The notes beneath the pieces were generated by a model that saw only the letters and a program-made list of their open reading frames with translations, was not told the origin of the DNA and did not search any database. A stretch of 49,530 nucleotides of DNA from Candidatus Peregrinibacteria bacterium (lineage in GTDB: Bacteria; Patescibacteriota; Gracilibacteria; UBA1369; UBA12473): the NCBI GenBank assembly GCA_018659585.1, contig JABJMC010000034.1:1-49530 (forward strand), given 5' to 3'. Of this stretch, positions 829-49,530 are shown piece after piece. Position numbers and translations under genes: made by a program. Numbering within the stretch: position 1 is the first letter of the stretch; each line of letters starts with the position of its first letter.

Positions 829-1964
829 TAGTGTTTGATTAAACTGCTAAAGCGGATAGCTAAGACTAAGGCGATTATACAGAGTCCAGTTCCAATTAAA
901 AATGGGTACATGTTGCCAAAAGTTTGGCCAATTGGTGCAAACATCAAGGCTCCGGTGGCAATGGCACTCATTTGTATAAAATTTACTAACCCGGCTATTC
1001 CGCCAGATCGTTTGCTGGGGAATAAGCTGCGTACCCCGTAATATAAGAAAATGAGCATAAAAGCATCGCCAGCTTCGTGAATAAAGCGACCAATTAAAGA
1101 AATATCAATACGCGGGATAATCATTAGTAAATGACCGATAGCTGAAAGGATTAATCCGGAATATAAGATGTGTAGGATGGGCCATTTTTTTTCAATCAAA
1201 TAAATGGCGAGTTTAGCCCACAGGAGCATGGCCATGATGGCTGTTCCCATATAAGCTCCCATTTGGCGATAGCTAAGCCCAAAATCTTCTCTAAGTAGTA
1301 AACCGTATGAGGTTATTTCGGCTCCCATGTGGATGGCCCAGATAAAAATCATACTTATAAATAAGAAGACTGGTAGTTTGAAGATATCTTTGCGGTATTC
1401 CTTAAATTCAAATTTAAAAGTTTCAGTTTTTGGGAGGATTGCCGTGAGGGCCGCGACTCCAAAGGTGAAAGTTCCAGTGATTTGGAGCCATAACTCAATG
1501 GAAATTGAATCTAAAATAAATCCACCAATAAACACTCCAAATCCCGCGGCGAACAGATAAGATCCAACGTAATTTCCAATCTGTTTATTCTGATTTTTAT
1601 CACCGGTTTTATAGAAAATACTGTCTATCGAAAGATTACTTAAAGTAACGCCAAAACTACCCATAGCAATGATTATGAGTAGGGCCCAAAAATTGCCGCC
1701 AACTAAAGAAATTAACCAAAGATTTAATCCGTTTAGGGTGTATCCCAGCATGGCTAATCTTCGAGATGAGATTCGATCGTTTAAAAGTCCCACCGGGATG
1801 GCGGATAGAATACTAACTAGTGGGAAAATTGCGAATAAAATGCCTTGCTCAAGCCCTGTAAGTCCAATTTGGGTGTAGTAAATACCCCAAAAAAACAGCA
1901 TGGTTTGGGCGATAAGCTTGGACATGCTAACAAAAAATGTAGCTTTGCGAACGTCGGTGTTCAT
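828..1964 (-). CDS. Major facilitator superfamily transporter inside the aro operon
   Basis: A 378-residue polytopic membrane protein with about 11-12 hydrophobic segments. The loop between helices 2 and 3 carries GLLNDRISSRRLAMLGY, matching the MFS motif A (G-x-x-x-D-R/K-x-G-R-R). It overlaps aroA upstream by four bases and aroK downstream by one, so it is embedded in the shikimate operon. That position suggests transport of an aromatic compound or pathway intermediate (import or efflux), but no substrate-specific signature is visible. MFS membership is clear; the substrate is unknown. Confidence 0.85.
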   Translation of the reverse strand: MNTDVRKATFFVSMSKLIAQTMLFFWGIYYTQIGLTGLEQGILFAIFPLVSILSAIPVGLLNDRISSRRLAMLGYTLNGLNLWLISLVGGNFWALLIIIAMGSFGVTLSNLSIDSIFYKTGDKNQNKQIGNYVGSYLFAAGFGVFIGGFILDSISIELWLQITGTFTFGVAALTAILPKTETFKFEFKEYRKDIFKLPVFLFISMIFIWAIHMGAEITSYGLLLREDFGLSYRQMGAYMGTAIMAMLLWAKLAIYLIEKKWPILHILYSGLILSAIGHLLMIIPRIDISLIGRFIHEAGDAFMLIFLYYGVRSLFPSKRSGGIAGLVNFIQMSAIATGALMFAPIGQTFGNMYPFLIGTGLCIIALVLAIRFSSLIKH

Positions 1965-3193
1965 TGGACTTTTTTAAGATCTTCCCAGAAATTGGGGTAG
2001 GTTTTGGAAACGCAGTCAGGATCTAGAATTTCTAGGTCTGGAATACGGGTTTTAGCCATCCCAAAACACATGGCCATGCGGTGGTCTTTATAGGTTTTGA
2101 TGGGGGCGCCATGCATGGATGTGGGGTTTCCATGGATGGTAAGCGAGTCGTCCGTGGTTTCGGCGGTGATGCCGATGCGATTAAGTTCGGTTTTAAGGGC
2201 TTCTAAACGGTCGCATTCTTTGATGCGGAGGTTATGGAGGCCGGTTAAGGTTGTTTTCCCAGGTGCAAAAGCAGATACCACGGCGAGAGTCATGGCGCCA
2301 TCAGGAAAAGAATTGGCATTGATTTGGCCAAGTGGTTTTAGTTGTTCGGGGCCAGTGACAGTTATCCCAGTTTCGTCTTCGTGAATTTGGCAGCCCATTT
2401 GTTCTAAATAATCTAAAATTTGAATGTCTGGTTGCAAAGTTTGGCGTGATAAATTAGCTACAGTTATGGTTTTTTCAGTGATTGCTGCAAGGCCAAAAAA
2501 GTAGGTGGCCGAAGAAGCATCTGCTTCGATAATTAAATCTGTTGGTTGGTATTTTTGGGAAGGAATTGTGAATCGTGAAAATTGTTCACGTTCAACGTCT
2601 TGTATACAAAATTTGTTCATTAAATCGAGTGTCATATCAAGGTAAGGCTTAGACGTAGCTTCATCTTCGACGTGAATAGTTAATCCTTCTGGTAAAAGTG
2701 GAGCCAAAATCATTAAAGCCGAGATGTATTGGCTACTATTTTTGCCGGTAATGTGGGTTTCGGATCTAGTGAGAGGAGATCCGTGAATAGTTAGGGGAGG
2801 ACAACCGTTTTGGCCTGTAATATTTGCGCCTAATTCCGAAAGAGCATCAATTAAATCTTGAATAGGACGTTCTTGCATACGTGGGTCTCCGGTAATAACA
2901 CTTAAAAATGGTTGGTGAGCTAAAATGGCGGTTAAAAATCGGACGGCAGTGCCAGCGTTGCCTAAATGGAGTGGCCCAAGTGGCCCTCGTAAAGTTTTTG
3001 GTGCATCAATGGTCAGGGTGGTTTCATTGGTTGTAATTTTGACCCCTAAGGTTTCAAGTGCCTCGATCATTACTTTGGTGTCATCGCTTAACAAACAACC
3101 TTTTAAAACACTTTGGCCAGGGGCCAACGCGGCCATTAATAAGGCGCGGTTAGTGTAGCTTTTGGAACCGGGAATTGTAATGATTGGCGTCAT
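1961..3193 (-). CDS. aroA: 3-phosphoshikimate 1-carboxyvinyltransferase (EPSP synthase)
   Basis: A 410-residue enzyme, slightly shorter than the usual 420-440, that joins PEP to shikimate-3-phosphate. Visible landmarks are PGSKSYTNRALL at residues 8-19 (the phosphate-binding Lys and Arg), LGNAGTAVRFL, the MQERPIQDLIDAL segment with the substrate Arg, SSQYISALM, and IKECDRLEAL and YKDHRMAM near the C terminus. It overlaps aroB by four bases (ATGA) and the MFS gene by four bases. All key motifs are intact, so a functional enzyme is expected. Confidence 0.96.
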   Translation of the reverse strand: MTPIITIPGSKSYTNRALLMAALAPGQSVLKGCLLSDDTKVMIEALETLGVKITTNETTLTIDAPKTLRGPLGPLHLGNAGTAVRFLTAILAHQPFLSVITGDPRMQERPIQDLIDALSELGANITGQNGCPPLTIHGSPLTRSETHITGKNSSQYISALMILAPLLPEGLTIHVEDEATSKPYLDMTLDLMNKFCIQDVEREQFSRFTIPSQKYQPTDLIIEADASSATYFFGLAAITEKTITVANLSRQTLQPDIQILDYLEQMGCQIHEDETGITVTGPEQLKPLGQINANSFPDGAMTLAVVSAFAPGKTTLTGLHNLRIKECDRLEALKTELNRIGITAETTDDSLTIHGNPTSMHGAPIKTYKDHRMAMCFGMAKTRIPDLEILDPDCVSKTYPNFWEDLKKVQ

Positions 3194-4284
3194 AGGACTG
3201 CTTTTACGTCTTGGGCAGTAATATTGTGAACAATTTTTGGGGTTCCGGGGCGTTTTAACAGGGTAAATGTGTAAGTTTCGCCTTGGTTTTTCTTGTCTTT
3301 GGTAAGGGCTTTTAAAATTGGTTTTCGGTCGATTTTAGCGGGAATGCGAGTAGGAAGCTTGATTAATTTTAGTAATTCTTCAATCCGTTCGCAGTTTTTT
3401 GAAGAAAGGATTTTTTTATCGACGGCTAAGCGATTTTCGAGATTCATTCCAATGGCAATAGCTTCGCCGTGATTTAAGCTGTAGTTACTGGCGTGTTCAA
3501 TGGCATGCCCAATACTGTGTCCATAGTTGAGAATCATGCGGAGCCCTTTTTCAAGTTCGTCTTTTTCGACCACACGACCTTTTACACGGCAGGATCGAAT
3601 TAGAAGTTGGGTGATAGTCGTGGTATGAGCATTTAAAGCTTTTTCAGGGTTCTTTTTAAGAATTCTAAGGATTCCTTTGTCGGAAATAAGGCCGTGTTTA
3701 ACTATTTCGGCTAGACCGTTTTTAACCTGTTTTTTAGAAAGTGTGCTTAAAACTTGTGGATCAATGTAAACTTTTTTTGGTTGGGTAAAAGCTCCGACTA
3801 AATTTTTACCACTGGTCAAATCCACGCCAGTTTTGCCGCCAATACTTGAATCAGACATGGCTACTAGCGTGGTAGGAATTTGAATAAATGGGATGCCGCG
3901 CATATACATAGAGGCTGCAAAACCAGCAATGTCGCCAGTTACTCCGCCTCCGAGTGCAATGACGCAACTTTTACGGTTATGCCCTAGTTGAACCATCTGT
4001 GAAACAAGTTTTTCCACAGTTTTTAAGGTTTTATGACGCTCACCAGCTTGAAAAGAAATCATAGTGGCATCTAAACCTTGGTCGCGCATTAATTTAAGAA
4101 ATTCTTCACCATACAGTTTTTTTACATTTGTATCTGTAATAATGCAGTACTTTTGGCCGAATTGGTGCTTTTTAATGTCGCGCGGAATTTGATGAAAACA
4201 ACTAGGAGCAATCAGGATAGAGTACGAATTATCGACGTACTTTCTAAGTTTGATGCGCTTTGAATAACGTTTAAAGGCAGGCAT
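3190..4284 (-). CDS. aroB: 3-dehydroquinate synthase
   Basis: A 364-residue NAD- and metal-dependent cyclase converting DAHP to 3-dehydroquinate. It contains the NAD-binding GGGVTGDIAGFAA at residues 112-124, the PTTLVAMSDSSIGGKTGVD segment, KNLVGAF, and the metal ligands in GLAEIVKHG and in NYGHSIGHAIEH followed by LNHGEA. The length is typical of the family. The N terminus (about 15 residues) is unusually basic. The gene starts 11 bases after aroF and overlaps aroA, so aroF-aroB-aroA are expected to be co-transcribed. Confidence 0.96.
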   Translation of the reverse strand: MPAFKRYSKRIKLRKYVDNSYSILIAPSCFHQIPRDIKKHQFGQKYCIITDTNVKKLYGEEFLKLMRDQGLDATMISFQAGERHKTLKTVEKLVSQMVQLGHNRKSCVIALGGGVTGDIAGFAASMYMRGIPFIQIPTTLVAMSDSSIGGKTGVDLTSGKNLVGAFTQPKKVYIDPQVLSTLSKKQVKNGLAEIVKHGLISDKGILRILKKNPEKALNAHTTTITQLLIRSCRVKGRVVEKDELEKGLRMILNYGHSIGHAIEHASNYSLNHGEAIAIGMNLENRLAVDKKILSSKNCERIEELLKLIKLPTRIPAKIDRKPILKALTKDKKNQGETYTFTLLKRPGTPKIVHNITAQDVKAVL

Positions 4285-4295
4285 GTTTTGAAAAA

Positions 4296-5309
4296 TTAAA
4301 TAGTGCGACCAACAGCCTCGGCAATGGGTTTAAGATTTTTCATAGTTTCTAAGAACATTTTGGGTGTCAAAGATTGATCACCATCAGAAAGAGCTTCTTC
4401 TGGGTTAGGATGAACTTCGATCATAAGACCATCAGCACCAGCGGCAATAGCTGCCTTGGAAACTGGTTCAACTAAACTACGACGACCAGTGGCGTGACTA
4501 GGATCAACTACAACTGGTAAGTGACTTAGTTCTTTGAGTAGTGGGACTGAATTAATATCAAGTGAATTGCGAGTTTCAGTTTCGAAAGTGCGAATTCCAC
4601 GTTCACAAAGGATAACATCATGATTTCCTTCGGACATAATGTATTCAGCCGCGAGTAAAAATTCTTTAATGGTATTACTCATACCACGTTTAAGGAGGAC
4701 AGGTCGTTTAGTTTTACCGACTTCTTTAAGAAGGTTGAAGTTTTGCATGTTACGAGCACCGATTTGAAGAATATCAGCGTATTTGGCCACAAGTAAAACA
4801 TCACGGGTGTCCATAACTTCAGTGACAACACCAAGTTTATAAGCATCAGCGTTTTTGCGAAGTAGTTTAAGCCCTTCTTCTCCTAAGCCTTGGAAAGAAT
4901 ATGGTCCAGTGCGAGGTTTGAAAGCGCCTCCACGCAGAACATTGGCTCCTGCTTTTTTAACTGCTTTGGCGCTAGCTGCCATTTGTTCGGGAGTTTCGAC
5001 ACTACATGGTCCAGCCATTACAATGATTTTTTTAGCACCAATTTTGACACCATCAACAGGAATGATGGTGTTTTCTTGTTTACTCTCACGAGAGGCAAGG
5101 GTGTATGGCCGCAAAACCGGCATTACTTTGCTAACACCTGGGAATGAATTTAGATGACGGACATCAAGAGTGCGTTCGTCACCGATAACCGCGATTACAA
5201 CGCGTTCAGTTCCGATTAAAGGCATTGGTTGGAGGTCTTTGGCTCGCATTTCCTCCATAATTTTTTGAACCTCCGTTTCGGGAGCGTTCTTTTTCATTAC
5301 GATAATCAT
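4296..5309 (-). CDS. aroF: 3-deoxy-7-phosphoheptulonate (DAHP) synthase, type I-beta
   Basis: A 337-residue protein catalysing the first committed step of aromatic synthesis (PEP plus erythrose-4-phosphate). Residues 1 to about 70 form the ferredoxin-like N-terminal domain of the Thermotoga/Bacillus-type enzyme. The barrel follows with VMAGPCSVE, LRGGAFKPRTGPYSFQGLG, LQIGARNMQNF, LLKRGM, LCERGIRTFE, VVVDPSHATGRR and GLMIEVHPNPE. It is the first structural gene of the operon. The long leader upstream (peptide at 5460-5555, terminator at 5398-5434) indicates control by aromatic tRNA charging. The ferredoxin-like domain could add allosteric feedback, as known for relatives. Confidence 0.96.
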   Translation of the reverse strand: MIIVMKKNAPETEVQKIMEEMRAKDLQPMPLIGTERVVIAVIGDERTLDVRHLNSFPGVSKVMPVLRPYTLASRESKQENTIIPVDGVKIGAKKIIVMAGPCSVETPEQMAASAKAVKKAGANVLRGGAFKPRTGPYSFQGLGEEGLKLLRKNADAYKLGVVTEVMDTRDVLLVAKYADILQIGARNMQNFNLLKEVGKTKRPVLLKRGMSNTIKEFLLAAEYIMSEGNHDVILCERGIRTFETETRNSLDINSVPLLKELSHLPVVVDPSHATGRRSLVEPVSKAAIAAGADGLMIEVHPNPEEALSDGDQSLTPKMFLETMKNLKPIAEAVGRTI

Positions 5310-5397
5310 ATTGATTGAATTTAAAGATTGATTATTGGGGTGTTTGTTGTTGACGCGATTAGAATTTTAGCATGGAATAAGAGGTTAAAGAATGTAT

Positions 5398-5434
5398 AAA
5401 AAAAACTTTCCTTGCGCGCCGCGTAGAAAGTTTT
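5398..5434 (-). terminator. aro attenuator terminator hairpin
   Basis: On the minus strand, AAAACTTTC (5434 to 5426) and GAAAGTTTT (5410 to 5402) form a perfect 9-bp stem with a GC-rich 15-nt loop, and the T-run continues to 5398. This is a Rho-independent terminator placed between the leader peptide and aroF, so it would stop transcription before the structural genes. Confidence 0.85.
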
Positions 5435-5458
5435 GTGAGAGTGCTAAGTCAAACTTTC
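5426..5458 (-). promoter_or_regulatory. aro antiterminator (competing stem)
   Basis: GAAAGTTT at 5458 to 5451 (minus strand), just after the leader peptide stop, is perfectly complementary to AAACTTTC at 5433 to 5426. That is the same segment that forms the left arm of the terminator, so the two stems are mutually exclusive. This is the 2:3 versus 3:4 arrangement of classical attenuators: a ribosome stalled on the aromatic codons leaves the 5458-5451 segment free and permits read-through. Confidence 0.82.
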
Positions 5459-5459
5459 C

Positions 5460-5555
5460 TTACGACGTAAGGGTAAAGTAATAAAAGTAACTAAAATTCC
5501 AGCTGTTTGGGCTGTTTTTTGTCGCGAGCCGAGAATTTAAAAGATTACTTTTCAT
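5460..5555 (-). CDS. Aromatic-rich attenuator leader peptide of the aro operon
   Basis: A 31-codon frame starting MKSNLLNSRL and containing W19, then F21, Y23, F24, Y25, Y26 and F27: seven aromatic residues in nine codons (WNFSYFYYF). Its ATG at 5555 lies about three bases from the predicted transcript start. Its stop (5462-5460) abuts the antiterminator arm, so a ribosome finishing the peptide would cover that arm, while one stalled on Tyr/Phe codons would not. The peptide has no expected function apart from being translated. Composition, position and downstream structures all agree. The exact start cannot be proven from sequence. Confidence 0.82.
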   Translation of the reverse strand: MKSNLLNSRLATKNSPNSWNFSYFYYFTLTS

Positions 5556-5564
5556 AGCGGGATT

Positions 5565-5593
5565 ACTATAACAGCGGCTTAAAGGTGTGTCAA
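5565..5593 (-). promoter_or_regulatory. aro operon promoter
   Basis: On the minus strand TTGACA (5593 to 5588), a 17-bp spacer and TATAGT (5570 to 5565) form a near-consensus sigma70-type promoter. The predicted start is around 5558, giving an approximately 250-nt leader before aroF. Confidence 0.82.
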
Positions 5594-5653: not shown

Positions 5654-5662
5654 TGTTATAGT
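5654..5662 (+). promoter_or_regulatory. Extended -10 promoter of tatD
   Basis: TGTTATAGT is an extended -10 element (TG-n-TATAGT). It would start transcription at about 5669-5670, the first base of the tatD ATG, so the mRNA would be leaderless. No good -35 is visible, which is normal for extended -10 promoters. Confidence 0.55.
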
Positions 5663-5669
5663 GAGTGTA

Positions 5670-6458
5670 ATGTTAATAGATACTCACTGCCATTTAACTT
5701 TTAAAGATTTTGACGGGAAAGTCTCGGAGATTATTGAGCGTGCGGAAAAAGTCGGTGTCCTTCAATTAGTTTCAGTGGGGGTGAATTTAGAGGATTCTTT
5801 GAAAAATTTAAAGTTGGCGGAGCGTTTTGAAGGAGTTTTTGCGACTTTTGGGGTGCATCCAAGTGATGCTTCTACTTGGGAAGATGGGTTTTTAGATGTT
5901 TTTTTGGAAAAAATTCGTGAGGGTTGGGATAAGCGGGAGAAAAATGTAGTGGCCATAGGAGAAATTGGATTAGATTATTATCACATGCGGGCACCAAAGG
6001 AGAAGCAAATAGAGGTTTTCCGAAAACAGTTGCAGTTTGCGAAAAAGGTGCAGTTGCCAGTGGTGGTGCATTCGCGTGATGCTTTTGAAGACGTTTTTGC
6101 GATATTGGAGGAGGAGGCCATGGAATCGGTGGTTTTTCATTGTTTTGCTGAGGGTCGTAAAGAGGCTGAAAAAGTGTGGGCAAATGAGTGGCACACTTCG
6201 TTTACTGGTACGGTGACGTTTGAGAAAAATGAGGATTTGCATGAGGTGGCTATGCTTTGTCCGGATGAATTGTATTTTTTGGAAACAGACTCACCATTTT
6301 TAACACCACAAAAATACCGTGGTCAGCGTAATGAGCCGGCGTATGTCATTGAAGTAGCGAAGGTAATGGCTGAATTGCGAGGACAGTCACTTGAACAGGT
6401 TGAGTGGCAGTCTACTAAGAATGCGCAGAGTTTTTTTGGGTTACCGCGGGTTGAGTAA
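5670..6458 (+). CDS. tatD: TatD family metal-dependent DNase
   Basis: A 262-residue TIM-barrel hydrolase. The start MLIDTHCHL places the first metal-binding HxH at residues 6 and 8. Later motifs are FGVHPSD, AIGEIGLDYYHM with the bridging Glu, LPVVVHSRDAF, VVFHCFAEG and FLETDSPFLTP with the final Asp. A GTG nine bases upstream is in frame, but the ATG at 5670 fits the family N terminus and the predicted transcript start. It is convergent with the unknown gene ending at 6461. TatD proteins are 3'-5' exonucleases or deoxyribonucleases; the physiological substrate here is unknown. Confidence 0.93.
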   Translation: MLIDTHCHLTFKDFDGKVSEIIERAEKVGVLQLVSVGVNLEDSLKNLKLAERFEGVFATFGVHPSDASTWEDGFLDVFLEKIREGWDKREKNVVAIGEIGLDYYHMRAPKEKQIEVFRKQLQFAKKVQLPVVVHSRDAFEDVFAILEEEAMESVVFHCFAEGRKEAEKVWANEWHTSFTGTVTFEKNEDLHEVAMLCPDELYFLETDSPFLTPQKYRGQRNEPAYVIEVAKVMAELRGQSLEQVEWQSTKNAQSFFGLPRVE

Positions 6459-40084: not shown

Positions 40085-40135
40085 ATGAAAACTAGTCCAA
40101 AGTACATTATTGGTATTATTATTATTCCTCGTTAG
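40085..40135 (+). CDS. Isoleucine-rich attenuator leader peptide
   Basis: A 16-codon frame, MKTSPKYIIGIIIIPR then TAG. Six of 16 codons are ATT (Ile), four of them consecutive; there is no Leu or Val. The ATG is only about three bases from the predicted transcript start. The stop codon's last base is the first base of the antiterminator arm, so a ribosome that finishes translation masks that arm and lets the terminator form. Position upstream of ilvE-ilvB-ilvN makes isoleucine-tRNA sensing the natural reading. Confidence 0.88.
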   Translation: MKTSPKYIIGIIIIPR

Positions 40136-40189
40136 GGGCAGGTCTTTCATGTGTTGATAAGGACCTCGCCCAAAAAGCGGGGATTTTTT
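40135..40189 (+). terminator. ilv attenuator: antiterminator and terminator
   Basis: Terminator: CCTCGC (40164-40169) pairs with GCGGGG (40177-40182), then six T (40184-40189). Competing antiterminator: GGGGCAGGTC (40135-40144) pairs, with one bulge, with GACCTCGCCC (40162-40171), which contains the terminator's left arm. The two structures exclude each other. The terminator lies 20 bases before the ilvE start. Confidence 0.85.
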
Positions 40190-40209
40190 AAATTTTAATC
40201 TTAAAAATT

Positions 40210-41109
40210 ATGGAATCGGCAGAGTTCATTTGGATGGATGGGGAATACGTACCCTGGGATGAAGCTAAAGTTCATTGTATAAATCATACAATGCATTATG
40301 GGGGAGGAGCGTTTGAAGGGATTCGATTTTATAAAACTGCGAAAGGGCCGGCTGTTTTTCGGCTTAAGGAGCATATGAAGCGACTTTTGTATTCTGCGGG
40401 AGTGATGGAAATGGATTGTGGTTATTCGGTTGAAGATTGGGTAAATATGACAGTGGAATTGATTGCTAAAAATAAAATAAAGGAGGGTTATGTTCGGCCG
40501 ATGATTTATTTGGGATATGGGAAAATGGGGATTAATCCGGTGGGGGCGACTGTTAATTGTTTGAATGCTTGTTGGGGTTGGGGATCTTATCTTGGCCACG
40601 AGGCTGTGGATGTGGCGATTAGTAAATATATGCGAATTCATCCCAAAACTACAGTTCAGGATGCTAAAATTACCGGACATTATTCAAATAGTATTTTGGC
40701 GTCTTTGGCGTTGAAGGAAAGTGGGGCTCATGAAGCACTTTTCCTTGATTACGAAGGGAATGTAGCGGAAGGTCCCGGCGAGAATGTGTTTTTGGTCAAA
40801 GAAGGAGTTCTCAAGACGCCGGGCCCAGGTTGCATTTTGCCAGGCTTAACACGTGATGCAGTAATGACTATTGCTCGCGATAAGGGTTATGAAGTCCAGG
40901 AAGAGACCCTAACAAAAGAAGATTTTTATGAGGCCGATGAAGCCTTTTTTACGGGGACAGCCGCCGAAATTACACCTTTTGCTTCTTTGGATGGTCGGAA
41001 ATATGGAGATGGAAAACCAGGTCCAATTTCAAGTGAATTAAAGGAGGCGTTTATGAAAGTTGTTAAAGGGGAGGATCCCAAATATGAACATTATTTAACT
41101 TACGTTTAA
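40210..41109 (+). CDS. ilvE: Branched-chain amino acid aminotransferase
   Basis: A 299-residue fold-type IV PLP enzyme of normal length that makes Ile, Val and Leu from their 2-oxo acids. Landmarks are HYGGGAFEGIRFY, the PLP Lys in DAKITGHYSNSILASLAL, EALFLDYEGNVAEGPGENVFLV and TPFASLDGR. It is the first gene after the attenuator and is two bases from ilvB, so it should be controlled by the isoleucine leader. Confidence 0.95.
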   Translation: MESAEFIWMDGEYVPWDEAKVHCINHTMHYGGGAFEGIRFYKTAKGPAVFRLKEHMKRLLYSAGVMEMDCGYSVEDWVNMTVELIAKNKIKEGYVRPMIYLGYGKMGINPVGATVNCLNACWGWGSYLGHEAVDVAISKYMRIHPKTTVQDAKITGHYSNSILASLALKESGAHEALFLDYEGNVAEGPGENVFLVKEGVLKTPGPGCILPGLTRDAVMTIARDKGYEVQEETLTKEDFYEADEAFFTGTAAEITPFASLDGRKYGDGKPGPISSELKEAFMKVVKGEDPKYEHYLTYV

Positions 41110-41111
41110 TT

Positions 41112-42818
41112 ATGGGGGCTAGGGAATACACAGTTGCGGATGCGATTATAGATACCTTGAAGGCACATGGGGTAAGTCATATTTTTGGTTTTCCGGGAGG
41201 GGCGATTTTACCTTTTTATGATGCTTTGCCTTACCATGAAGAAATTAAGCATGTGTTGGTGCGTAATGAACAAGGTGCGGCTTTTGCGGCACAGGGTTGG
41301 GCGCGTACTCGTGGAGAAATTGGGGTTTGTTGTACTACATCCGGACCGGGTGGCACTAATTTGATTACGGGGATTGCGGATGCGTATATGGATTCGATTC
41401 CGATTTTGTGTTTTACCGGGCAAGTGCCACTTTCCGTAATTGGAACCGATGCTTTTCAGGAGGTTGATATGACTGGGGTGACGTTAAATATTACAAAGCA
41501 CAATTATCTTTTGGATAAACCCGAAGATGCGGTCCGAGTTGTAACCGAGGCGATTCAAATTGCGTTATCGGGGCGGCCTGGGCCAGTGCATATAGATTTG
41601 CCAAAGGATGTTCAGGCCGCGTCTCATCTACGCGATTTTGAAATTCCAAAATTAGATTTTTCCGATACTGATCCGATGATGGCTGCATATCAGTCAGTTG
41701 ATCCAAAATTTATAGATGAAGTGATAAAAATGTTGAGTGAGGCTGAACGTCCACTTCTGTTAATTGGGCACGGTGCTAAGTGTTCAGGGGCTACAGCGCA
41801 AGTTCGAGAATTAGTTGAAAAATTAGGCATTCCAACGGTTAATACTTTGCTTGGAAAAGGAGTTACGGATGCTCATAATGAATATGATTTGGGAATGTTG
41901 GGGATGCATGGTTTTTATCACGCTAATATGGCGGCGCATGAGACAGATTTAATCTTAAATTTAGGCTCACGCTTTGATGATCGAATTGTGGGCCGTTATG
42001 ATGTTTTTGGTGAAAATGCCAAAATTGTGCATGTGGATATTGATCGGTCGGAATTGAATAAAGTAGTGACTAGTGATTTGGCAGTTCATGCTGATGTAAA
42101 GATTTTTGTAGAAGCGTTATTAAAACGTGTTCAAAAATTACAAATTGACTCTTGGCACGAGAGAATTCGTTCCTGGGAATCTGAAAAGCCATACGAGCCT
42201 TCTCCAGGTGAATTCACAGTTCGAGATTGTTATTCAGCGCTAATGGCGGAAATTGCCAAAAATCCAGATCAATACATTGTGGTATCAGATGTGGGGCAGC
42301 ATCAAATGTGGGCTTCTCTTTCGATGAAGGTCCCTGAACCATTTAAGTGGCTTGCTTCTGGAGGAGCGGGGACTATGGGCTTTTCTTTGCCAAACTCAGT
42401 TGGAGCGGCTTTTGCTAATCCCGATAAGACAGTGGTTTGTTTGGTTGGAGATGGTGGTATGCAAATGAATATTCAAGAGTTAGCGGTTTTGATGGATTAT
42501 GGACTAGATATTAAGATTTGTGTGATGAATAATTCATTTTTAGGAATGGTGCGACAGTGGCAGGACCTTTTTTATGATAAAAATTATTCTGGTGTCCAAA
42601 TTACTTCGCCGGATTTTGTAAAGGTGGCGGCTGGTTATAATTTGTCTGGGCAGACTGTGTCTTCGATGGTAGAGCTTCCAGGAGCGATTGATAAGATTTT
42701 TGTGGAACGTGGACCAATGGTCAGCGAATTTCGTGTAGTAGAGGAGGACAATGTCTTTCCTATGGTCCCTGGGGGTAAAACTTTAGGGGAAACAATAGTT
42801 TCTAAACAAGATTTATGA
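41112..42818 (+). CDS. ilvB: Acetolactate synthase, large subunit
   Basis: A 568-residue TPP-dependent enzyme: N-terminal pyrimidine-binding domain with IFGFPGGAILPFYDAL and the catalytic Glu in RNEQGAAF, central FAD/nucleotide-fold domain (LLIGHGAKCSGA, DRIVGRYDVF), and the TPP-binding GDGGMQMNIQELAVL...VMNNSFLGMVRQWQ. It condenses pyruvate with pyruvate or 2-oxobutyrate for Val, Leu and Ile. It overlaps ilvN by four bases (ATGA). TGA is its stop, evidence for the standard code. Confidence 0.96.
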   Translation: MGAREYTVADAIIDTLKAHGVSHIFGFPGGAILPFYDALPYHEEIKHVLVRNEQGAAFAAQGWARTRGEIGVCCTTSGPGGTNLITGIADAYMDSIPILCFTGQVPLSVIGTDAFQEVDMTGVTLNITKHNYLLDKPEDAVRVVTEAIQIALSGRPGPVHIDLPKDVQAASHLRDFEIPKLDFSDTDPMMAAYQSVDPKFIDEVIKMLSEAERPLLLIGHGAKCSGATAQVRELVEKLGIPTVNTLLGKGVTDAHNEYDLGMLGMHGFYHANMAAHETDLILNLGSRFDDRIVGRYDVFGENAKIVHVDIDRSELNKVVTSDLAVHADVKIFVEALLKRVQKLQIDSWHERIRSWESEKPYEPSPGEFTVRDCYSALMAEIAKNPDQYIVVSDVGQHQMWASLSMKVPEPFKWLASGGAGTMGFSLPNSVGAAFANPDKTVVCLVGDGGMQMNIQELAVLMDYGLDIKICVMNNSFLGMVRQWQDLFYDKNYSGVQITSPDFVKVAAGYNLSGQTVSSMVELPGAIDKIFVERGPMVSEFRVVEEDNVFPMVPGGKTLGETIVSKQDL

Positions 42819-43294
42819 AAAACGATATTTATTCAACCCCGAACGTCGAGCTAGAATATTCACTGCGTTATATCTACATAAAAGTGCGTAATGTGGTTGG
42901 GATTTTGAATCGAATTGCTTCGCTTATGCGTCGTAAACGTTATAACATTGAAGATATGAGTGTGGCTTTTGATGATGAACAATTTTCACATTTGATTTTT
43001 GCGATTGATGGACGTCTTATTGATGTTCAAAACGCGGTGGAGCAGCTTCGTAAGTTGCATGACACTGTTGAAGCGCGGGATATGACTCAAGAAAAAGATC
43101 ATTTATTTAAAGTTTTTTATGTGGAGGCTGAAGATTTTTCTAAATTTCCGGTAGAGCCGCTTCGAATAATGAAAACTGATGATGAAACGCGCGGAATTTT
43201 TATGACTCCGCTAGGGGATGATACTGCGGAATTAGTTCAATTTTTAGATAGTAATAATTATTCTTATCGCCGCCGTTTGGTGGGCTTAACTTAA
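42815..43294 (+). CDS. ilvN: Acetolactate synthase, regulatory small subunit
   Basis: A 159-residue protein with an N-terminal ACT domain (VRNVVGILNRIASLMRRKRYNIEDMSVAF...HLIFAIDG) and a C-terminal AHAS-C-like domain. It confers valine-type feedback and full activity on IlvB in known systems. The overlap with ilvB and the two-base gap to thrC place it in one operon. Confidence 0.92.
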   Translation: MKNDIYSTPNVELEYSLRYIYIKVRNVVGILNRIASLMRRKRYNIEDMSVAFDDEQFSHLIFAIDGRLIDVQNAVEQLRKLHDTVEARDMTQEKDHLFKVFYVEAEDFSKFPVEPLRIMKTDDETRGIFMTPLGDDTAELVQFLDSNNYSYRRRLVGLT

Positions 43295-43296
43295 CT

Positions 43297-45123
43297 ATGA
43301 AAAAAGCATATAAACTCAAATGTTTCCTTTGTGAAAAGGAACACGATGAACAGGAATCAGCTACTACTTGTACTTCCTGTCATGGGCCGCTTGAAACGTA
43401 TTACAATTACGATTTAATTGCTCAAAAACTTAATACTTATGCGCTCAAAACCGCGCCGATTTCGGCTCTTAAATATATGGCGCTTTATCCGATTGATGAT
43501 TTTAAAAATATTGTATCTTTGGAAGAAGGTGGGACTCCATTAATTCACGCCAAAAATTTAGGTAAAAAACTGGGATTAAATAATCTTTATATCAAAAACG
43601 AAGGAATGAACCCAACTGGTTGTTTTAAAGATCGTGGAACCATGGTGGAGATTACAAAAGCCAAGGAAATGGGAGCTAAAGCAATTTGTGTGGCTTCGAC
43701 TGGTAATATGGCGGCTTCAGTTTCGGCTTATTCAGCGGCCGCTGGAATTCCTTGTTATGTGCTGGTTCCAGAAGGGACGCCGCTGGGAAAACTTTCGCAA
43801 ACACTTACTTTTGGGGCGCGTTTGATTCAAGTTCGAGCTTCTTATTCAACTTGTGCGGAATTAGCGGAACAGATGGCACAAAGATTTGGTTATTATTTGG
43901 CTGGTGATTATACGTTTCGGACGGAAGGTCAAAAATCTGAAGGTTATGAGATTATAGAACAACTTTTTTGGCGCTGTCCGGATTATGTGGTGTGTCCGAT
44001 TGGTTGTGGGACTAATTTACACGCGATTTTTAAAGGAATTCAGGAATTAGAAAAATTAGGATTTATTCGAAGATTGCCTAAATTAATTGGTGTACAAACC
44101 GAAGGTTGTAATCCGGTAGTGAAGGCTTTTGAGGCGGGACGACTTGATTTTGATTCTATTAAAAATCCACGAACTGTGGCTTCGGCTATTGCTGCGGGAA
44201 CGCCACTTGATGGAGCAAAAATTTTGAAAGATGTTTATGATTCTGAGGGGACAGTAGTGGAAGTTGATGATGAGTATTTATTAGAGTGTCAACAGGAGCA
44301 AACGCGGGCCGAAGGGGTGTTTTCTGAGCCTTCAGGAGCATTGGCTTATGCCGCGGTTAAAAAGTTATCTGGAGAAGGGTTTTTTAACGAAGATGACGTA
44401 GTGGTTTGTATGGCCACTGGTAATGGACTTAAAGATCCAAAATCACCACTCAAAATTCTTCCGGAGCCAGCTTCAGTTGAACCAGATTTTAAGGAAATTG
44501 AGCGGTTTATTGAGCAAAAGCTATACGCGGTTCGTGAAAGTGGTCGGATTGAGAAAACTAAAGTATTGTTTACAAAGTCACCAAAGGATTCAAAGGCTAT
44601 TTCAAAAGTTTTGGCTGACGAATTTGATATTTCTGTGAATGGTGGGATTTCGGAGGCTATTTATAGAAGTGTGACTGGCTTCTTAGAGAAAGGTAAAGAA
44701 ATTACAAAAGCGGATCTTCAGTATATTTTGGAAGAAATTTTAGATGAGTTTTCTTTAAAAAATCGAGTGCTCGCAATTAGTGATTTTAAAGTCCAAACAA
44801 CCATGCATGATCAGGCTGAGGCCGAGGTTTGGGCTGAAGCCTTTGGCAAGGAGGTTCATGCTTATGGGAAAGGTGTTGGTCCTGTTGATGCGGCGATCCA
44901 GGCTCTTAAAGATGCTCTTAAAGTTAAGGTTTGGCTGATAGATTATGAAGTGGCGATTGATGCTTCTGGTGTGGATGCGGCCGTAGAAGTTAAAATGACC
45001 CTTAAAAATGAAAAGGGTCACCGAGTGGTGGCACGCTCTACATCACCTGATATTATTGTGGCTTCACTTAAAGCCTTTGAAAAAGGCGTAAATATTCTTT
45101 ACTCAAAGTTGGAGGGCATTTAA
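43297..45123 (+). CDS. thrC: Threonine synthase fused to a LeuA/CimA-type allosteric domain
   Basis: A 608-residue protein. Residues 1-30 form a zinc ribbon (C9, C12, C25, C28); the fold-type II PLP core has GMNPTGCFKDRG (PLP Lys about K111), STGNMAASVSAYSAAAGI and ATGNGLKDP, all threonine-synthase-like rather than threonine dehydratase (which has SFKIRG). About 90 residues of unknown helical domain follow. Then residues about 489-608 match the LeuA allosteric/dimerisation domain (GKGVGPVDAAIQAL, LIDYEVAIDASGVDAAVEVKM, SPDIIVASLKAFEKGVNIL). Such domains bind Leu or Ile in isopropylmalate and citramalate synthases, so feedback by a branched-chain amino acid is likely. Confidence 0.87.
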   Translation: MKKAYKLKCFLCEKEHDEQESATTCTSCHGPLETYYNYDLIAQKLNTYALKTAPISALKYMALYPIDDFKNIVSLEEGGTPLIHAKNLGKKLGLNNLYIKNEGMNPTGCFKDRGTMVEITKAKEMGAKAICVASTGNMAASVSAYSAAAGIPCYVLVPEGTPLGKLSQTLTFGARLIQVRASYSTCAELAEQMAQRFGYYLAGDYTFRTEGQKSEGYEIIEQLFWRCPDYVVCPIGCGTNLHAIFKGIQELEKLGFIRRLPKLIGVQTEGCNPVVKAFEAGRLDFDSIKNPRTVASAIAAGTPLDGAKILKDVYDSEGTVVEVDDEYLLECQQEQTRAEGVFSEPSGALAYAAVKKLSGEGFFNEDDVVVCMATGNGLKDPKSPLKILPEPASVEPDFKEIERFIEQKLYAVRESGRIEKTKVLFTKSPKDSKAISKVLADEFDISVNGGISEAIYRSVTGFLEKGKEITKADLQYILEEILDEFSLKNRVLAISDFKVQTTMHDQAEAEVWAEAFGKEVHAYGKGVGPVDAAIQALKDALKVKVWLIDYEVAIDASGVDAAVEVKMTLKNEKGHRVVARSTSPDIIVASLKAFEKGVNILYSKLEGI

Positions 45124-48657: not shown

Positions 48658-49530
<873 letters not shown>

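Follow-up and report, generated by a model that had tools for sequence, protein, structure and literature searches.

Leader-peptide attenuation, including a DAHP synthase attenuator as such, is known already. In 2010, it was said to have been shown only in Proteobacteria and Actinobacteria before the Firmicutes case of that same study (PMC2965389). At the entry of the shikimate pathway, the aroR-aroF locus of Corynebacterium glutamicum encodes a Phe-Tyr-Phe leader for which ribosome stalling is reported (Neshat et al. 2014, as summarized in PMC11802643 and PMC4046766), and in Acholeplasma uORFC-13-1, upstream of aroF, combines an upstream ORF (uORF) containing Phe codon(s) with a terminator (PMC8632094). 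A Tyr-tRNA attenuator was hypothesized for the aroF leader of Escherichia coli and Shewanella (Camakaris 1980, as cited in PMC2659441), and leaderless leader peptides of Actinobacteria are exemplified by trpL, leuL and ilvL of Streptomyces lividans (PMC8079986). The locus considered here comes from the Patescibacteria, which have very small genomes and whose regulation is little known. It lies in a 49,530-nt stretch of Candidatus Peregrinibacteria DNA, analysed as a whole and called the window below, and very probably regulates the shikimate operon led by DAHP synthase through ribosome-mediated transcription attenuation, with joint sensing of charged tRNA-Trp, tRNA-Tyr and tRNA-Phe. The direct basis for this reading consists of the sequence elements, the mutual exclusivity of two RNA stems and the conservation, with coevolution, of both; promoter activity, leader translation, stalling and readthrough are what we infer from them. 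An earlier note on this DNA, made from its letters, had proposed trp-like attenuation on combined Trp, Tyr and Phe codons, and this is still the best-supported reading, the aromatic cluster and the stems being kept in the order and beyond.

The genes predicted to be controlled lie on the minus strand and include DAHP synthase and other aro genes, as the earlier note proposed. The first is a DAHP synthase of type I-beta with a ferredoxin-like domain (4296-5309; NF006421 at 510.9 bits against a cut-off of 335, with PF00793 and PF18152), followed by aroB for 3-dehydroquinate synthase (3190-4284; TIGR01357 above cut-off), aroA for EPSP synthase (1961-3193; TIGR01356 above cut-off), an MFS transporter gene (828-1964; PF07690) and aroK for shikimate kinase (319-828; PF01202). 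These five genes nearly overlap, and the transporter between aroA and aroK may be under the same attenuator control. The other flank of the leader is occupied by a divergent TatD nuclease gene (5661-6458, plus strand). All three end branches are present in the genome of the window (trpA, PDT, PDH), with trpA near a contig end. Prephenate dehydrogenase and prephenate dehydratase share one open frame (G000:C43:9587-10909, L197), a likely TyrA-PheA fusion, and several members of the order have such a single frame of ~560-590 codons. Given trpA and the dehydrogenase/dehydratase frame, Trp, Phe and Tyr are plausibly all end products in this genome. In several members of the order, the trp and tyrA-pheA operons were also scanned for leaders of aromatic or Trp type, with no convincing result.

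Upstream of DAHP synthase, again on the minus strand, a consensus scan locates a predicted promoter TTGACA-17-TATAGT at 5593-5565, with the -35 hexamer at 5588-5593, the -10 hexamer at 5565-5570 and a TG ahead of the latter; 11 of the 12 consensus positions match. The ATG of the leader ORF follows only 9 nt past the -10 hexamer, which probably makes the leader mRNA leaderless or almost leaderless. This ORF (5460-5555) has 31 codons, is translated as MKSNLLNSRLATKNSPNSWNFSYFYYFTLTS followed by a stop, and ends WNFSYFYYF-TLTS-stop; its putative control codons (5475-5501), seven out of nine aromatic, lie 4 codons ahead of the stop, and the aromatic cluster is conserved among relatives. When the 291-nt leader was shuffled 2000 times with dinucleotides preserved, no ORF with seven aromatics in nine codons arose, and six were reached in 0.7% of the shuffles. 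Both the promoter and this aromatic run were thus found where the earlier note had placed them. Across both strands of the window, six ORFs reach at least six aromatics in nine codons. A blind scan for an ATG-initiated ORF with promoter and terminator, on both strands of the whole 49.5 kb, returned four matches, among which the aro leader is the only one with aromatic codons and has the best promoter.

RNA folding, together with the cross-genome pairing test described below, defines three further segments. Segment 2, the 5′ arm of the antiterminator (5451-5467), comprises an outer part at 5467-5462 and a core, GGAAAGTTT, at 5459-5451, and overlaps the last leader codons and the stop. Segment 3 (5417-5434) is the shared arm, contributing 5433-5417 to the antiterminator as its 3′ side and 5434-5425 to the terminator as its 5′ side, and segment 4, GGAAAGTTTT, at 5402-5411 is the 3′ arm of the terminator. 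The antiterminator, in which 5467-5462 and 5459-5451 pair with 5433-5425 and 5422-5417, has a predicted energy of -16.2 kcal/mol (z -3.2, p 0.01 against dinucleotide shuffles). The terminator, which pairs 5434-5425 with 5411-5402 and includes a small inner stem, reaches -11.3 kcal/mol and runs into a U8 tract at 5398-5405, so that an intrinsic terminator sits between the leader ORF and the first gene. Since both structures use 5434-5425 (overlap region 5434-5417), they are mutually exclusive, as had been claimed for stems with a common segment. The further claim that the peptide stop abuts the antiterminator arm is right for the core, which adjoins the stop, and needs amending for the outer part, which extends into the stop and the final codons ahead of it. 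A possible 5′ hairpin (5482-5553), a candidate pause hairpin, would pair the ORF start (5553-5532) with the aromatic codons (5501-5482); its duplex energy in the window is -10.5 kcal/mol (p 0.03). Pairing of the leader 5′ end (segment 1) with segment 2 is unsupported in the window genome (p 0.395). With a terminator (-11 kcal/mol) weaker than the antiterminator (-16) and this segment 1:2 pairing unsupported, basal readthrough without translation may be high in this genome.

In the proposed mechanism, transcription would start at ~5560-5556, just ahead of the leader start codon, and a ribosome would trail RNA polymerase along the leader ORF. If any one of the three aromatic amino acids ran short, the ribosome would stall within WNFSYFYYF with its front edge short of 5459, segment 2 would pair with segment 3, no terminator would form and the operon would be transcribed. 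With all three plentiful, the ribosome would reach the stop and cover 5459-5451, segment 3 would pair with segment 4 and transcription would end at 5405-5398. The front edge of a ribosome lies ~15 nt past the first base of the P site. For a ribosome whose A site holds the last aromatic codon, this puts the front edge near 5465, so that 5459-5451 would be free for the antiterminator; once the stop occupies the A site, the front edge would lie at ~5450 and the antiterminator arm would be masked, which is the geometry of trp attenuation.

Homologous leaders were sought upstream of DAHP synthase genes in 59 genomes (that of the window and its relatives), which gave 30 loci, and in a comparison set of 76 loci from named genomes, mostly Omnitrophota whose enzymes are 57-66% identical. 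An upstream ORF with at least five aromatics in nine codons precedes 21 of the 30 loci of the order search versus 5 of the 76 comparison loci (Fisher p 7e-11). Four of these five are L054 (the same as G038, an order member), L066 (a Peregrinibacteria MAG, counted with the order on the basis of its leader and enzyme), L108 (Planctomycetota, Phycisphaerae) and L110 (Acidobacteria), the last two carrying full predicted attenuators. In the sole Omnitrophota positive, L056, the ORF runs into the gene itself without an attenuator layout, and the aromatic attenuator is absent in ~65 Omnitrophota with related enzymes. Peptide, antiterminator and terminator occur together in 27 order loci of largely different sequence, a count that takes in L026-L028 (weaker aromatic content, both stems) and loci added later, while such a leader is missing from ~8 of the 35 order loci whose upstream DNA is long enough to judge (e.g. 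L004, L006, L010, L015, L023, L029 and L112). Most relatives that keep the DAHP synthase gene thus carry what is predicted to be the same switch.

The peptides of the order end in SWGFEFYFYFY, WGFFYFYF, VWAYFYFTNF, FNWAFFYFFS, FQFWAFYYFPLNT, FFNFWFYYFNLQPVRIS or the Trp-less FYFFYAINQS, and their geometry is conserved: the last aromatic codon lies 0-8 codons ahead of the stop, segment 2 lies at or across the stop, and the terminator follows 17-42 nt on. The nearest relative of the window, L002 of the same family, has an equal layout and very different stem sequences. Among 43 hand-scored leaders, Trp is present in 19 with and 9 without trpA in the genome and absent in 4 with and 11 without it, an association (p 0.013, uncorrected for kinship) that is suggestive only of Trp in the leader loosely following trpA presence. 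Between terminator and DAHP synthase, a second small ORF was seen in L002, L003, L007, L008, L009, L014, L017, L019, L022, L024, L066, L116 and L118; it often ends C/Y/W-LY(R)R, the DNA string TNTCTTTAT being conserved, and the window has a remnant of it, MLKF followed by a stop, at 5359-5373 on the minus strand. Long-range pairing of this second ORF with the DAHP synthase start is unsupported in the order, unlike in family f24 (see below).

Since the leaders hardly align, pairing was tested directly, by comparing duplex energies within genomes with those of segments swapped among genomes (n=25). For segments 2 and 3, the mean within genomes was -15.1 against -8.5 after swapping (z -10.8), and for segments 3 and 4 it was -11.9 (z -11.6, n=25); neither value was reached in 5000 permutations. 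Against dinucleotide-shuffled versions of their own partners, segments 2 and 3 gave a mean z of -3.2, with p<=0.05 in 22 of 25 loci. The earlier note had expected homologous leaders to keep the aromatic codons and both stems, with compensatory changes, while the rest drifts, and such is the pattern of the order loci. The pairing of the ORF start with the aromatic codons also coevolves across the order (z -4.8). Pairing of the leader 5′ end with segment 2 reaches p<=0.05 in 11 of 25 order loci (swap z -6.2); it is interpreted as a protector, by which the terminator could still form on a leader that no ribosome has entered.

Beyond the order, the same anatomy was found in two other families of the class, f24 and f30. 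The leaders of f24 encode peptides such as MKINNFYYFGFYFEAR and have CCGC as segment 1, the stop UAA in the loop, GCGG as segment 2 and again as segment 4, and then a U tract. The 5′ end:segment 2 pairing gives z -4.0 in this family; taken alone, its permutation support for segments 2 and 3 is weak (z -1.3) because its stems barely vary. In seven f24 loci (L121, L122, L123, L128, L131, L148 and L149) there is a second uORF, mostly Tyr-rich (GYYRSYR, YYRRGYRY). Its Tyr codons supply the 5′ side of a strong predicted hairpin (-20 to -33 kcal/mol) in which the start region of DAHP synthase is buried, and the uORF is a candidate Tyr-sensing translational attenuator. In family f19 (L138, L139, L140, L141 and L146), aromatic leader peptides (FGAFGFAYFTFF and similar) with a hairpin near the stop are mostly without a U tract; these leaders perhaps have a different output, and the family was left out of the count of same switches since the U-tract terminator is missing in most members. 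The rest of the phylum, sampled through 333 genomes of which 34 had any match to the enzyme (some being distant homologues), added nine loci, e.g. NFYFYFYFTNPGGARG and SFYFYFMPG (z -4.6 for segments 2 and 3, -5.1 for segments 3 and 4).

Outside the phylum, in the Planctomycetota order of KatS3mg104, 17 of the loci orthologous to the DAHP synthase of KatS3mg104 (L211-L217, L219, L220, L222, L223, L225-L229 and L232) have leaders of the type FGFWFxGYFYP...AS-stop and an antiterminator and terminator; one antiterminator arm, GUCCUGAG, spans the stop and pairs with CCUCAGGAC, and either arm may be replaced by a closely similar sequence. The ~50% identical DAHP synthase paralogues of that order have a leader in 0 of 8 cases. 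The Acidobacteria provide one case, L110, with the leader MRFSRFYFYGGWADH followed by a stop. Leaders of Patescibacteria and Planctomycetota have only their aromatic character in common, which would fit a repeated origin. A broader generalization is about evenly balanced between being right and wrong: that, wherever Patescibacteria retain the shikimate entry enzyme, its standard regulator is a pan-aromatic, mostly leaderless attenuator, with a separate origin in Planctomycetota (and at least one in Acidobacteria), that the codon content of this attenuator tracks the aromatic end branches of the host, and that one family adds, at the level of translation, a Tyr-rich second uORF opening a hairpin over the enzyme's own start.

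The short distance between promoter and start codon is a recurrent feature. Counting consensus promoters only, the start codon lies 6-10 nt past the -10 hexamer in the window, L024, L025, most of f24, most of f19, f30 (L120) and L108, which places it on or only a few nucleotides from the predicted transcription start, and 20-26 nt from the hexamer in many other order members; no Shine-Dalgarno sequence was seen ahead of the leader ORFs of the loci so compared. Over all gene starts of the window, no clear Shine-Dalgarno sequence precedes the genes, and UUAAC/UAACC stands 5-15 nt upstream of many of them, which may be a lineage-specific initiation signal. The window also holds the beginning of a 16S rRNA gene (48666-49530, plus strand), which is cut by the contig end. 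Among the 16S rRNA 3′ ends examined in the order, including L269 (G041), L270 (G026) and L272 (G016), some have an altered anti-Shine-Dalgarno (AUAUCUC, UUAUCUC, ACAUUCCC) in place of CACCUCC, which is intact in others.

Several other explanations of the locus have to be weighed. The barest is a plain factor-independent terminator next to a chance ORF, with no regulation. Small ORFs are common in AT-rich DNA, as the six aromatic-rich ORFs on the two strands of the window illustrate; however, no shuffled leader matches the observed cluster, the TatD gene is divergent so that no terminator is needed on that side, and the alternative stems coevolve in dozens of genomes, which makes this explanation hardly credible. 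The hairpin pair could also be a small-molecule riboswitch, a T-box or a protein-bound attenuator with an incidental peptide, since a terminator and an antiterminator do exist at the locus and such elements control aromatic genes in Firmicutes. Yet a covariance search of the leader region against Rfam gave chance matches only at E<=10, with no riboswitch, T-box, Trp_leader or Phe_leader, and what is conserved is the presence of aromatic codons and their short distance to segment 2, not the RNA sequence or the loop between segments 2 and 3; this explanation is highly improbable. Scarcely less so is an action mainly through sequence-specific arrest by the nascent peptide instead of charged-tRNA supply. 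Peptide-like motifs are kept in some families (FFGFYFxxR in f24, FGFWFxGYFYPA in Planctomycetota), but the conserved final Arg codon of f24, CGC, is explained by the RNA pairing CCGC-UAA-GCGG, and leaders of the order differ in their residues (WGFFYFYF, WAYFYF, FYFFY, FFNFWFYYF), being constant in aromatic character only.

More room is left, although it is still unlikely, for attenuation that is real and effectively senses only one or two aromatic amino acids, such as Phe, with the remaining codons as passengers. All leaders are dominated by Phe and Tyr codons, Trp is missing in L017, L019, L066 and most of f24, and AroR of C. glutamicum, with its Phe-Tyr-Phe, responds to Phe and not to Tyr according to the account in PMC11802643. 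In contrast, most leaders of the order retain Trp, as a rule early in the cluster, Trp tends to be missing where trpA is missing (with the uncorrected p given above), and all three aromatics recur in the Planctomycetota leaders of unlike sequence (FGFWFxGYFYP). A ribosome-mediated attenuator reading all three tRNAs is accordingly preferred.

The blind scan of the window returned one further convincing leader, Ile-rich, ahead of ilvE-ilvB-ilvN on the plus strand. The element spans 40085-40200 and encodes MKTSPKYIIGIIIIPR followed by a stop (40085-40135), with a predicted promoter TTGACC-17-TATAGT 9 nt ahead of the ATG, a CCUC-GUUA-GGGG hairpin over the stop, alternative stems and a U-tract terminator; ilvE-ilvB-ilvN and a threonine-deaminase-like (ilvA-like) gene follow directly (40210-45123). 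The relative G001, of the same family, has MIFPRSELVLVEIIILFS followed by a stop at the same place, with its own alternative stems and U tract, and no leader of this type was found at an ilv gene in the more distant relatives checked. The lineage hence seems to use leader-peptide control more than once. In this genome, the shikimate pathway appears to be wired to the ribosome, one peptide reading three tRNAs at the pathway entry, and the ilv operon appears to be wired in the same way.

A literature search that covered few subscription journals found no leader combining Trp, Tyr and Phe and no leader-peptide attenuation in Patescibacteria or Planctomycetota. The earlier note had called such an attenuator unexpected in a Patescibacteria-like genome; this holds in that no earlier report was found, and no longer in the sense of an oddity of one genome, the attenuator being widespread in the phylum ahead of DAHP synthase. 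In comparison with known systems, the locus is like the trp, phe (pheA, pheST) and his attenuators of E. coli and Salmonella in its leader ORF of cognate codons, its alternative antiterminator and U-tract terminator, and a stop codon positioned such that segment 2 is masked by the ribosome that terminates there. Unlike these, which each sense one amino acid, it would read three; it also controls the entry enzyme of the common pathway, and its leader mRNA is probably close to leaderless, without a Shine-Dalgarno sequence and without an Rfam match. The nearest known case, likened by its published description, is aroR of C. glutamicum, where a Phe/Tyr leader also stands ahead of a DAHP synthase operon; it belongs to the Actinobacteria, the motif reported for it has no Trp, and the response described is to Phe and not to Tyr. 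Acholeplasma uORFC-13-1 likewise places a Phe uORF and a terminator ahead of DAHP synthase, but it comprises 24 sequences from one genus and environmental DNA, has a ribosome-binding site and is described as having at least one Phe (PMC8632094). The aroF leader of E. coli and Shewanella has DAHP synthase and the idea of attenuation in common with the present locus, but the hypothesis as cited concerns Tyr-tRNA only and describes no leader peptide. The leaders of S. lividans have their start codon at or near the transcription start, as is probable here, and serve other amino acids, operons and another phylum. Three features seem to be new: the specificity for three amino acids, the broad distribution among Patescibacteria and the use of leaderless peptide genes in such an attenuator. 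This comparative evidence makes the coupling of ribosome and RNA polymerase in these uncultured cells testable in a laboratory host, and suggests that other deep branches of Bacteria, too, have repeatedly adopted leader-peptide attenuation.
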